Source: Corallium rubrum | Taxonomy: Eukaryota > Cnidaria > Anthozoa > Scleralcyonacea > Coralliidae | Assembly (NCBI GenBank): GCA_964035015.1 | Contig: OZ035999.1 | Coordinates: 3,640,627-3,704,626 of the forward strand | DNA: 64,000 nt | Reading direction: 5' to 3' | Shown here: piece by piece, positions 279-54,938 of the stretch | How the letters are laid out: the number at the start of each line of letters is the position of its first letter | Numbering within the stretch: the first letter of the stretch is position 1 | Notes under the pieces: generated by a model | Told to the model about the DNA's origin: nothing | What the model saw: the letters and a program-made list of their open reading frames with translations, nothing else | The model's database searches: none | Made by a program: the position numbers and the translations under genes

Positions 279-3200
279 GGTATGCCTCCTCTACCCGGAT
301 CAAATGCCCTGTCGTCATTAGTCAAACAAGTGTCATCTCTACCATCTAATCTCGCTAGTAACGACTCGGTTTCGGCTGGCGAGAAACGATCGGAGAAGCC
401 ACCGCCCCCCGGATTTATGGAAGCCGACTATCAAGATAGTGGTATACCTGAAGTACCTCTTCCCAATATGGTCGTGAACATGAATCCTGCCGTGAACGAG
501 TCGTTGGCCTTTAAGCCGTGGTGGCCGAAGGACCGGGTGGTGTTCCATCGTGTCCAGCAGCTGTGTCATCTGGTCGTGTCCGGCGAATGGCCGTCGAAAC
601 CAGAGAGAGCGGAAAGAACGGTTGATCAATCGGCTCCTGATGTATCCGTTTCTCCCGGTGCCTTCCAGATATTTGCTGAGAGCGAGATGGATGGGAATTT
701 TGCTGGTGAACCGTTGCCGGATCCTGCTTCGAAGGCTTTCAAAGTTAAAAAGGTAATGGTTCTCCTGACGAAGGGCCTTCGCTCGAAACGTCGAGAAGAT
801 TTTTCTCTGTTTTTCAGGCCAACGTGACTTAACCCTGGTAATATTTGGATTTCAACCGTGGCCGACGCTGTCCTAGAAGCTTTTAATGGTTCTTCCTAGC
901 TGTGTTTGTTAAGTTAACTAGCTCTTTATTTAACAAATAAAACATAAAGCTCCGTACATATGTACTCTTATAAAGGCACGTTTGACGTCATTTGAACACG
1001 AAAGCAGTTGAGTAGAGGCACGAGGCGATAGCCTTTTATAAGAGCAAACGAACCTTTATAAGAGTACATATGCACAGGAGCGGTATGTTTTATTTGTTTT
1101 ATAAAATAAGAAGGAAAAAAACAAACTAATAAAGTGGGATAGTTTTGAAAGTTCGCTATAGCTTTTCCCGCCAGGTGACGCCATCCTAAGCCATTTTACG
1201 TCATTCATGATCTTCATACTCTTATAAATGTACGGGGCCCAGCCAATCAGAGCGTGCGTAGAGGACACCTTATTTTATAAAATCAAGTGAAACGATCTAT
1301 ATTTTTTTTGTCTTTAGCATGAGGGATTAAAAGTCACTCTTAAGAAGAATAGGAAGAGAAAAAAGAAAGATACTGAAGGTAATTGATGAGTAATTTTTGT
1401 CAGTTCTTACTGTACAAGCTGTCGTTATGTGTTAAAAACGGCACAATTTAAGTCTCTAGACAAGACAAACTCAAAGCTCGAGTAATATTTCATAAACGAG
1501 TGGGAGTGTTTTACGTAATATGTAAAGGCCGACAATGAGGACTAGACCGGGTTTTCAAGTACGAGGAATTCGTTCCAGTCCGAGGCGAAGCCGAGGACTG
1601 CAACGAATTCCGAGTACTTGAAAACCCGGTCTAGTCCGAATTGGAGGCCTTTACATGACTTCTCAAAATCACTTAGTGTATTCCCAAAATGAATTAGTGC
1701 ATTAGTAATTAGTGTATGGATGAATAACCGATTGTGTGAAGTAATATTTCCAGTCCAAGGACTTGAAATATTATTTCCAGTCCTTGGACTGGAAATAATA
1801 TTTCAAGTCCTCTGCCCAGTACTTCCCTGGTATTTCAAGTCCCTTCACGTGGTGCAATTCAGCGCTTCTGATTGATTGATTATCTCATGAATTATTAATA
1901 AGTTTGAGAAATAATAGTTCAAATACGAGACGGAGGACTTTACCGGGATTTCAAAGTTCGCGTGCTTTTTGAAAAGGCGAGCCTTTTTAATGCACGAGGG
2001 CTTTGTAATCCCGGTAAAGTCCGACGTCGAGTATTTGAATTGACTTCTCAAACTCAAAACTCCGAAGATACCTCCAAAACGTAATATAATTTGTCTTATT
2101 TCAATGTCCCAAGACTTTGAAAACCTATGTTGCATTATTTCAAAGTACTAGTACTTTTCCTCCGATTTCAAAGCACTGATCAAACATTAATTTCTTTTGT
2201 TTTTGGTTCATGAATTATTAATGAGTTTGAGAACATGGGTTACAAACACGAGAGGACAATGAAAATCGCGAGGCCGTTATAACCGAGTAATTAGTGCAAA
2301 GTTTCACAGAAACTTTGCGGTATTGTGATGAGTGGCGAAAATTCACACGATAGATACATAGATACATAGATAGTGTAAACTTTCCGGGGGTTAATTTACC
2401 AGGTTTAACGACATACATACTTGTCGTAGTTGAAAGGCTAAAACCAGTGAAAATGTGAAACACTAGTATCAGTCTTTCATAGACGACAAATATTTATGTC
2501 GCTTAAAGCTCGTAAGCCCTATAAACAGCGATAACAGACAGGTTTGTACCTTATCTATGGATATTTCTTGAAAGACGTGTTTATCTTAATATACCAAGAA
2601 TGAAAGAAGTTTCCCCCCGGAATATATTAGAATACAACTGCGCACGCGTGGTTTTGTTTGCGACTGGCGAATACAACAATGGCGGAGAAACCCAAAGGAG
2701 TGATCGATTTTTCTTCTCGAAACAACGAATTTCTAGGCTTTAGTGCATGGCTAATTAAATATGGTCTGGGCGAAAGGATTTATTGTCTGCCCAGCGGAAG
2801 GTCAAAGGTGCGAATAAATATTAAAAGCTTTATATTTAACTTTAATATGGTGTGGCATGTTGACGATGTTGTGAAGTCGGTTTGTAGAGTGTTGTTGGTT
2901 CGTGTCTGTTCTATTTTCAGCTCAGTAACAAATTCTGTATACTGGAGATCGTAGACTGTCTTCGCATTTTGATTTGGCGTTCAATAAGCAACTGTACGAA
3001 GAACTCTGGCCAAATAGTAAACATGAATGTTTAGTTCTACATGTATCTGTACCTGCGTGAACTTAGCGCGTGATTGGGCAGACGATTCGCAAGGCTAACA
3101 TAACGTGAAGCTAGCAACATAATCATCAGGCGTAATAATTTGTGAAGGCAACAAAAACTTACTTATCTTGACATTCACTTGACAAATTTTAGTCAATTTT

Positions 3201-12985: not shown

Positions 12986-13084
12986 AAAAAAGAGTCCCGC
13001 TTCAGACCCCGACCAGTACGGATTGACTAGTTCCCAGGCGTATAAATATCGAAAACAACCTCGGTCTACCGTCTGAGTTCCAGT

Positions 13085-13190
13085 GGCTCAATGATGAGAG
13101 CGTCCGGCTGGCATTCGGAAGGTTGTGGATTCGAGTCCCGTCTGAAGCTCAGAGTTTTTCTCTGAGTAACAGGGAGCCTAGGCTTGAGCT
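13085..13190 (+). mobile_element. tRNA-derived SINE head
   Basis: TGGCTCAATGATGAGAGC (13084-13101) resembles a pol III A box and GATTCGAGTCCC (13129-13140) a B box, with spacing like a tRNA, then a TCTGAAGCTCAGAG tail. Not a cloverleaf I can fold, so treated as a SINE. Confidence 0.5.
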
Positions 13191-35432: not shown

Positions 35433-35740
35433 CTCGAATTTTCCTTCCACTAAAATCCCTAGAACATGCTATGTAATCGAGTGAAATGCCCAATATTACT
35501 TATAATGTACCCCATTCTCTCCTGGCATTACCACCTTAATGTATACAGAACTCCCGATCAAGCTCTCGGCAACGGCCTCCGTGGCTCAGTGGCCAGAGCA
35601 TTGCACTAGAATCGCAAGGTCGTGGGTTCAATTCCTGCCGGAAGGCCTGTGTAGTTGCATTTTTCGCAACTGGTCCCGGTTTGGTCTTAAAATGTATATA
35701 TTCTACACTCGAATTTTCCTTCCCCTAAAATCCCTAGAAC

Positions 35741-44345: not shown

Positions 44346-44649
44346 CCAACTCGGGTCAACCTGTCTACGAATAAACCCATGTTAGCGTTTACACGATATC
44401 CGGGTCAACCACCCTTTTCAAGACCTGGGTCGGCCCGGGTTGGAGAGGTGCGACGGTGCTGAACTTTGGCCAATTCCTTCATGTAAACACGAGTTGGTTT
44501 GACCCGGGCTCGTGTAAAGTGTTGGCAAAATGATAATTTGTGTTGAGAAAAGCTGACCCGGGTTGGGGGGAAAAACAGCCAACCCGAGTTCATGTAAAAA
44601 GAATAACCTGTCGAGGTAGTGCTGTGCCCGACTTGTTTTGATAACGAAA

Positions 44650-44684
44650 TACTGACGTTTCCAGTGGAGCCCTTCGTCAGAGTA
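44650..44684 (-). ncRNA. hammerhead-like motif with poor stem II
   Basis: On the minus strand: stem I UACU (44684-44681) and AGUA (44653-44650) pair, CUGACGA and GAAA are intact and the site is GUC-like. Stem II between them (GGGCUCCACUG) does not pair well, so activity is doubtful. Confidence 0.4.
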
Positions 44685-45169
44685 AAATGTGGACTCCGCT
44701 CGAAACGTGCAGTATTTCGTTATCAAAACTATATTATCGGCAGTTTACAACCTTTTCACTTTGCTCTATCTAAAAACTGCCTATATACGCAGCGATATAC
44801 TTTTTATCACAAATTATATATACGCTCTGCATGCGAGCACTTCTTTTTATCGCTCAAAAATGATAAACTCCTCGAATTTTAATTGTTGTAATATATACAT
44901 GCATACACATAGTAACGGAAAACTGATGTTTCGCGCAGAGCCCTTCATCAGAGGGATGCATGATTGGGGAGGCAGGCTTGGGTGCATGGCATAAGCTGTT
45001 AACGCGCCACTGTCTCTCACGACTGAAGTTAAGCCCGCGGTCGAATGGGGTTATAACCACAACATAACAACATGTATTTATACCGCGCAAATTCAACTTT
45101 AAGGTTTTCAAATGCGCCTTACAATAATTTTTGACATGGCTGAGTCGAAGGCATATTAAAGGCACTCAG

Positions 45170-47068: not shown

Positions 47069-47455
47069 TTTAAGGATTTTTGGGTGAAGGAAAATTCGAG
47101 TGTAGAATATATACATTCATTGTACTCTATATTATTCACTTCGTATTCGGCACTGAACGTTAACCCCTTCACGTACGTCATGGCACGCTACGTATACTGC
47201 AATCGAGTGGTATTCGTATTATGTTCTAAGGATTTTTTGGGAAGGAAAATTCGAGTGTAGAATATATACATTTTAAGACCAAACCGGGACCAGTTGCGAA
47301 AAATGCAACTACACAGGCCTTCCGGCAGGAATTGAGCCCACGACCTTGCGATTCTAGTGCAATGCTCTGACCACTGAGCCACGGAGGGCGTTGCCGAGAG
47401 CTTAATCGCGAGTTCTGTATATATAATAAGGTGGTGATGCCAGGAGAGAATTGGT
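47069..47455 (-). mobile_element. tRNA-like repeat with terminal direct repeats, copy 2
   Basis: The terminal block AAGGAAAATTCGAGTGTAGA occurs at about 47087 and 47238. Between them is a segment (ATTCACTTCGTATTCGGCAC ... AATCGAGTGGTATTCG) that is also found at 53910-54002. The tRNA-like core follows with GTGGCTCAGTGGTCAGAGC on the minus strand. Confidence 0.7.
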
Positions 47456-49476: not shown

Positions 49477-49690
49477 TAGCGTGCTGCGTAGGCAGTGTAG
49501 AAACAACAATCGAAATATAGTAAGGTTAGGTATACTGCCGAAACAGAGAGCGTATAGGAGTCTAACGTTTCGAGCGAAGGCCCTTCGTCAGAGAGAACGT
49601 TTCTCTCTGACGAAGGACCTTCGCTCGAAACGTTAGACTCCTACGTTCTCTGTTTCGGCAGTATATCTAACCTTACTATATTTCGATATA
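49473..49690. mobile_element. face-to-face Penelope-like ends with paired hammerhead-like motifs
   Basis: From TACTGCCGAAACAGAGAGCG through TAACGTTTCGAGCGAAGG to CTCTCTGACGAAGG the sequence mirrors around about 49597 for roughly 100 bp each side. Minus-strand motif 49561-49594: CUGACGA, GGGC/GCUC, GAAA, stem I UCU/AGA. Plus-strand motif 49604-49637: same, with one stem II mismatch. The left arm also matches 36802-36925. Confidence 0.65.
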
Positions 49691-52993: not shown

Positions 52994-53433
52994 ACATAGC
53001 ATGTTCTAAGGATTTTGGGTGAAGGAAAATTCGAGTGTAGAATATATACATTTTAAGACCATTGCACTAGAATCGCAAGTTCGTGGGTTCAATTCCTGCC
53101 GGAAGGCCTGTGTAGTTGCATTTTTCGCAACTGGTCCCGGTTTGGTCTTAAATGTACATATTCTACACTCGAATTTTCCTTCACCCAAAATCCTTAGAAC
53201 ATCGAGTGAAATGCCCAATATTACTTATAATATACCCCAATTCTCTCCTGGCATTACCACATTATATATACAGAACTCGCGATCAGGCTCTCGGCAACGC
53301 CCTCCGTGGCTCAGTGGTAAGAGCATTGCACTAGAATCGCAAGGTCGTGGGTTCAATTCCTGCCGGAAGGCCTGTGTAGTTGCATTTTTGGCAACTGGTC
53401 CCGGTTTGGTCTTAAAATGTATATATTCTATTC
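52994..53433 (+). mobile_element. tRNA-like repeat, head-to-tail dimer, copy 3
   Basis: ATTGCACTAGAATCGCAAG occurs at 53061 and 53325, a 264-bp period, each followed by the B box-like TTCAATTCCTGCCGGAAG and the terminal block. An inverted terminal block (52994-53060, TGTTCTAAGGATTTTGGGTG) abuts the left end. Second unit has an intact A box-like GTGGCTCAGTGGTAAGAGC (53308-53326). Confidence 0.75.
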
Positions 53434-54633: not shown

Positions 54634-54938
54634 AGTAATATTGGGCATTTCACTCGATTACATATATACCATGTTCTAAGGATTTAGGGTGAAGGAAAAT
54701 TCGAGTGTAGAATATGTACATTTTAAGACCAAACCGGGACCAGTTGCGAAAAATGCAACTACACAGGCCTTCCGGCAGGAATTAAACCCACGACCTTGCG
54801 ATTCTAGTGCAATGCTCTGACCACCGAGCCACGGAGGCCTGTGTATATAGTTGCATTTTTCGCAACTAGTCCCGGTTTGGTCTTAAAATGTATATATTCT
54901 ACACTCGAATTTTCCTTCACCCTAAATCCTTAGAACAT
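54634..54938. mobile_element. tRNA-like repeat, head-to-head copy with 14-bp target-site duplication
   Basis: A minus-strand unit (54634-54834) meets a plus-strand partial unit (54835-54938) inside the core. Both outer ends are the terminal block. GCTAAAAATTCATA flanks the whole at 54620-54633 and 54939-54952, which marks it as one insertion. Confidence 0.78.

Follow-up and report, generated by a model that had tools for sequence, protein, structure and literature searches.

The 64,000-nucleotide stretch of Corallium rubrum DNA analysed here (the window; contig OZ035999.1, positions 3,640,627 to 3,704,626) carries, directly after the splice donor of a coding exon, a motif that resembles the hammerhead ribozyme. 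The question raised by this locus is whether the motif acts on the splicing of its host gene or is a passenger left by a mobile element. A preliminary description had taken it for a complete hammerhead whose cleavage could compete with splicing and set the choice between a long and a truncated protein, and had added that it might be a Penelope-like relic. In our analysis, the motif very probably belongs to a passive and recent stub of a Penelope-like element (PLE) that sits in an existing intron and is removed together with that 565-nt intron.

The minimal hammerhead lies on the + strand at 760–797. Stem I is formed by UUCUC (760–764) and GAGAA (793–797), the core strand CUGACGA occupies 765–771 and GAAA 785–788, and stem II pairs GGGC (773–776) with GCUC (781–784), one of these pairs being G-U; the core extends over 765–792. 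GUC stands at 790–792, with the cut predicted between 792 and 793. Every base that the preliminary description had assigned to stem I, CUGACGA, stem II, GAAA and GUC is present, and its 3' product start at 793 fits this cut. The motif is real, yet it is not the complete hammerhead that had been claimed. GAAAC runs straight into GUC (GAAACGUC), leaving helix III with two possible pairs and zero loop, and 760–886 is a single unit lacking a helix III loop both by sequence and by the covariance model R1 described below. The intact CUGANGA..GAAA..UH core with stems I and II, and a loopless helix III that could pair only between two copies, are features of PLE-type hammerheads; an ACGU palindrome is found at 788–791. 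Minimal type I hammerheads of PLEs were reportedly treated by Cervera and De la Pena in 2014 and by Lunse et al. in 2017. The window motif differs from this kind in nothing essential, sharing the intact core, the short stems I and II, the loopless helix III, the thousands of dispersed copies and the location in a PLE terminal repeat; it is distinguished as a solo stub whose 5' strand of stem I lies partly in the target duplication. Sections of PMC7761336 and PMC7229834 describe such minimal type I motifs in PLEs, and the former states that they lack helix III or loop contacts and calls their role 'a mystery'.

A covariance-model match, which the preliminary description had expected of a genuine hammerhead, was obtained with a model built from other element families and was not obtained with the Rfam hammerhead families. 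None of the latter reached its gathering score over the whole window, and none appeared even at an E value of 10 when the search was restricted to 600–1000. Of the 41 distinct motifs collected from other families, 38 went into model R1, with the family of the window copy and three window motifs left out; the model matches 759–798 with 38.6 bits (E = 7.7e-9), one of five strong minimal hammerheads that it finds in the window. In the alignment of these 38 motifs, covariation was counted over eight pairs in two stems and compared with shuffles and slid controls. Paired cells amounted to 76.6% versus 55.6% in shuffles, and 63 cells had changed on both sides versus 24.2 in shuffles. The covariation score was 0.572 versus 0.220 in shuffles, with none of 500 shuffles scoring as high and slid controls at 0.191 or below; kinship among motifs can inflate such counts, and the slid controls are subject to the same relatedness. 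Stem I is the weaker of the two, with 69.7% of cells paired and the outermost pair unpaired in 21 of the 38 motifs. Counted by itself, stem I gave 109 of 164 versus 86.3 in shuffles (0/5,000), and its arms were fully paired over four positions in nine of 41 motifs. Since both stems covary and model R1 finds its matches, the hammerhead fold, on this comparative evidence, is maintained by the element families and not by the host intron.

The motif is also far too abundant to be accidental. The window contains a single CTGANGA..GAAANGTCGAGAA and 100 shuffles of it contain none, and across the 474 Mb of the genome CTGANGA-N(4-24)-GAAACGTC has 6,030 exact matches (2,868 + 3,162), whereas its reversed control has 33 (18 + 15). 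The family core 34-mer, TTTCTCCTGACGAAGGGCCTTCGCTCGAAACGTC, has 1,700 exact matches genome-wide (809 + 891) and its control none; the window copy stands outside these 1,700, as the first base of its 34-mer differs (GTTCTC versus TTTCTC in the family). A chance likeness to a hammerhead would be compatible with the Rfam result and with a local fold whose stability is unexceptional relative to shuffles (z = -0.54; z = 0.92 for 741–900), but it is refuted by the copy number relative to the control, the covariation in other families and the match to model R1, and its probability is practically negligible.

The boundaries of the unit identify it as an insertion. The PLE terminal fragment (760–886, + strand) is similar to tailed family copies from 760 to 883–888; as the element shares TTCT and TAA with the duplication, these ends can be placed only to within a few bases. 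It is flanked by two + strand copies of TAATGGTTCT, at 754–763 and 884–893, which form a 10-bp target-site duplication, in keeping with the variable-length duplications of PLEs; among random pairs of 16-mers from the window, 81 of 200,000 shared a 10-mer. TTCT both ends the left copy and opens the TTCTC of the element, and the 5' strand of stem I is partly target sequence. The 3' part (844–886, + strand) is a tail, about 40 bp of extra sequence that one type of element end carries. No ORF is carried by the window copy. Taken together, these sequence features make it a terminal-repeat stub of a PLE with a tail.

Among 26 family matches spanning from 770 or before to 880 or beyond, five are 100% identical to the window copy and, with a single exception, identity is 95.7% or higher. 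Since the copy is identical to five of these tailed matches, the insertion is judged to be recent, an age that is based on family identity, the homologues of the host gene being distant. The recent insertion in turn explains why the motif is intact, and there is no sign that the host intron has retained it. The pre-insertion site is predicted to have read GTAATGGTTCTTCCTAGC; a search of the same assembly for an empty allele, allowing up to three mismatches, found none. The description as a Penelope-like relic is thus right in its first half, given the PLE terminal repeat, tail and target duplication, and not in its second, as this is a young copy.

To characterize the family, 48 loci were taken from places of the genome-wide pattern matches, 40 of them stretches of contig C1 and the other eight given by the pattern search itself, and 53 copies of the family were found in 40 of these loci. 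TATAAATA lies 43 nt upstream of the core in 34 of the 53 copies, GTRAGT at -22 from the core in 41, and TTTTTCAGG no more than 40 nt downstream of the core in 52. Two kinds of end were observed. Tail-less ends (32/53) mostly stop at or near ...CCCTGGTAATAT, with unrelated DNA beyond, and tailed ends (21/53) continue for about 40 bp to approximately ...GTCCTAGAAGC(C)TTTTAA; the sequence across the tail junction is found 939 times in the genome as an exact match. Some loci, among them L036, L037, L045 and L047, hold facing pairs of copies, one tailed and one tail-less. The two kinds of end and the inverted pairs argue for the pLTR-and-tail anatomy of PLEs, in which terminal repeats are inverted or direct and a tail of 30–40 bp is optional. 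Target duplications of 12 bp (L046) and 15 bp (L026) were detected by script in two other short copies, and by eye L032 and L035 also look duplicated. Of the 16 short-5'-end rows, 13 gave no duplication by script; these include several inverted or AT-repeat junctions.

Full PLE copies encode a reverse transcriptase with a GIY-YIG endonuclease, and the traces of coding sequence are partly consistent with this. In L037, each of the two arms has an ORF upstream of the hammerhead and in the same orientation. One ORF piece matches RVT_1 with 26.8 bits (E = 5e-6), under the Pfam cut-off of 29.6; the other two pieces tested matched no Pfam family, and the reverse-transcriptase piece had no match among PDB sequences. 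The C-terminal piece has 1,229 homologues and, among the 120 listed, RVT_1 occurs in 11 and GIY-YIG in six; named PLE homologues among the matches listed include those of Oculina patagonica, a gar and a land snail. An ORF neighbouring the L037 element has six homologues, the one named being from Paramuricea clavata. Phage records gave no match.

The family compares well with known elements. Adineta Penelope, according to the portion of PMC3846280 available, has inverted pLTRs, a 31-bp tail and 8–10-bp duplications, and the available portion of PMC11167929 describes for Anolis PAc a tail of 30–40 bp between two internal reverse-transcription start sites and a hammerhead near the element start. 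Inverted terminal repeats, an optional tail (about 40 bp here) and duplications of about 8–15 bp are shared with both, as is the position of the hammerhead with Anolis PAc. The Adineta families are low-copy, whereas the copy number here is far higher and the window copy is ORF-less. In scale, the 6,030 pattern matches resemble the type I motifs of Acropora millepora, which sections of PMC7229834 number at over 6,000 per genome and assign mostly to the atypical minimal kind; the experiments described there concern the canonical, tandem kind. The present insertion was not reported in those parts of the PLE and hammerhead literature that the search returned, including PMC6431247 and PMC3136932.

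The way in which such a stub may arise is suggested by the upstream ends. In 15 copies the upstream match ends 36 nt or less from the core, and 12 of these ends fall 1–14 nt before it, about 30–40 nt past a TATA-like box; six of the 12 are inverted junctions. Transcription of the element would probably start about 11 nt upstream of the core, downstream of GTRAGT. On the basis of the 12 ends, the stub may derive from RNA begun near the pLTR start site and reverse transcribed from an internal start, although these data are suggestive only. An intron belonging to the element itself was considered as well: GTRAGT...CAG would frame 75 nt in 32 copies and 77 nt in nine. The Penelope of Drosophila virilis has a 75-bp intron; a literature search for that length found no paper. 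We regard a native intron in the terminal repeat as doubtful because it would contain the probable start site, past GTRAGT.

The coding exon of the host gene (282–752, + strand) lies in an open frame at 267–827 with the first ATG at 282, and has 14 homologues at 51–67% identity; a Pfam search with four frames of the gene found nothing above cut-off. [VI]KKV is kept at the same place in all 14 homologues, with V corresponding to the donor GT (753–754), and divergence begins immediately after it. The donor at 752/753, as the preliminary description had placed it, is therefore a genuine, conserved exon end. In ten homologues the read-through extends six residues or more beyond the donor, and the ribozyme translation is absent from the read-through of all 14, which are, however, distant relatives. 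The presumed host intron (753–1317, + strand, 565 nt) would run from GT at 753 to TTTAG at 1313–1317 and is followed by a 61-nt in-phase exon (1318–1378) and GTAATT. In two homologues (P0132 and P0135) the read-through enters a short run of basic residues similar, by eye, to the product of exon 1318–1378, which supports 753–1317 as an ordinary intron. Further repeats at 925–1283, in this intron, and at 1505–2233, past the next exon, match several of the sampled loci (L033 at 71–81%, L018 at up to 91%, L034 at up to 97%, and L039 at 83%).

A second acceptor-like sequence is supplied by the insertion. The pyrimidine tract with CAG at 801–817 (+ strand) is the TTTTTCAGG that follows the core in nearly all family copies, and on this comparison the CAG derives from the transposon and not from the host. 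The arithmetic of the preliminary description holds: CAG ends at 817, 753–817 measures 65 nt, and a join of 752 to 818 gives four codons (A N V T) before TAA at 830–832. In eight loci of other families (L001, L049, L060, L061, L064, L065, L070 and L071), GGCAG is seen by eye about 26–33 nt past the predicted cleavage site.

Family membership, the tail, the duplication, the conserved donor and the absence of the motif from the 14 homologous exon ends are what sequence comparison establishes. In the explanation that we favour, a PLE end piece of about 120–127 bp, comprising the hammerhead, the acceptor-like tract and the tail, inserted just past the host donor and duplicated 10 bp, and the whole 753–1317 intron would be spliced out as it was before the insertion. 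The lone hammerhead would be inactive or nearly so, with helix III forming only between two copies through pairing of ACGU with ACGU, and PLE hammerheads may moreover need PLE protein. Folding predictions agree that inactivity is most likely. In the predicted minimum-energy monomer, GACG pairs with CGUC and the cleavage site is buried at -12.6 kcal/mol, versus -8.6 kcal/mol for the hammerhead fold, and a nested dimer of two copies reaches -16.1 kcal/mol, the best two-strand pairing being another at -33.2 kcal/mol; all of these energies ignore tertiary contacts. As the lone ribozyme is without the helix III loop that it needs, the stub is most likely without effect.

Alternatively, splicing could be disturbed without any catalysis if the donor at 752 were sometimes joined to the transposon acceptor at 818, yielding a 65-nt intron that holds the hammerhead and a stop after four codons, with the ribozyme uninvolved. 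The tract has 14 pyrimidines in 17 positions, equal to the presumed true acceptor at 1317; it is present in 52 of 53 copies, and GTRAGT is also found in 41 of the 53, so that judged from sequence a weak splicing competitor is possible. Against this, 23 sites of equal pyrimidine content occur on the + strand of the window, so that the tract is not special, and an intron of the element's own is doubtful, as argued above; we consider such exonisation unlikely. A broader version treats PLE ends as portable modules of ribozyme and acceptor, so that a cut or mis-spliced host transcript would track transposon activity. The stub past the donor would create the 65-nt alternative intron containing only the hammerhead, and cleavage would occur only once the fold is completed by PLE protein or by another PLE hammerhead RNA, for which the thousands of copies could be a source. 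We hold this version to be very unlikely.

Cleavage in cis, competing with splicing and setting the long versus the truncated protein, is the reading that the preliminary description had advanced, and it found no support. In its favour, the core bases are intact, the stems pair and the element families have conserved the fold, and amniote intronic hammerheads have been proposed to influence splicing in the part of PMC6155905 available. Nevertheless, helix III of a lone copy cannot close, the monomer is predicted to misfold, the insertion is recent and absent in all 14 homologues, and, according to PMC11167929, the Anolis PLE motif required PLE protein for cleavage and its site was neither the start nor the end of any RNA-seq read. 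We therefore rate cis cleavage as highly improbable, and catalysis at 760–797 would, from these predictions, be the least likely step in any effect of the stub.

Extremely improbable, finally, is a hammerhead domesticated under selection in the host gene. Amniote intronic hammerheads (RECK and CTCL) have a full helix III. The window motif shares with them a location in an intron and the origin from retroelements that PMC6155905 proposes for them, and it is intact, in sense orientation and adjoins a conserved donor. RECK and CTCL are, however, conserved in many species, whereas the insertion here is recent and missing from the homologues, and its intactness is explained by its identity to other copies.

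A suspected regulatory ribozyme thus turns out to be, in all likelihood, a recent transposon insertion. An intact core beside a splice site is no evidence of function where thousands of near-identical copies exist. A genome with 1,700 exact cores and at least one copy adjoining a splice site would be suited to measuring cleavage in vivo.

The four other strong minimal hammerheads of the window belong to other families. Two of one PLE-like family stand head to head at 49558–49597 (- strand, 46.0 bits with model R1) and 49601–49640 (+ strand, 43.9 bits); the downstream sequence TTCTCTGTTTCGGCAG is similar to the main family's acceptor-like tract. The remaining two are on the - strand at 44648–44686 (45.5 bits) and 44919–44957 (38.4 bits). 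Five tRNA matches over the Rfam cut-off, at 13077–13149, 35575–35646 and 53300–53371 on the + strand and at 47317–47388 and 54767–54838 on the - strand, are possibly tRNA genes or tRNA-derived repeats.
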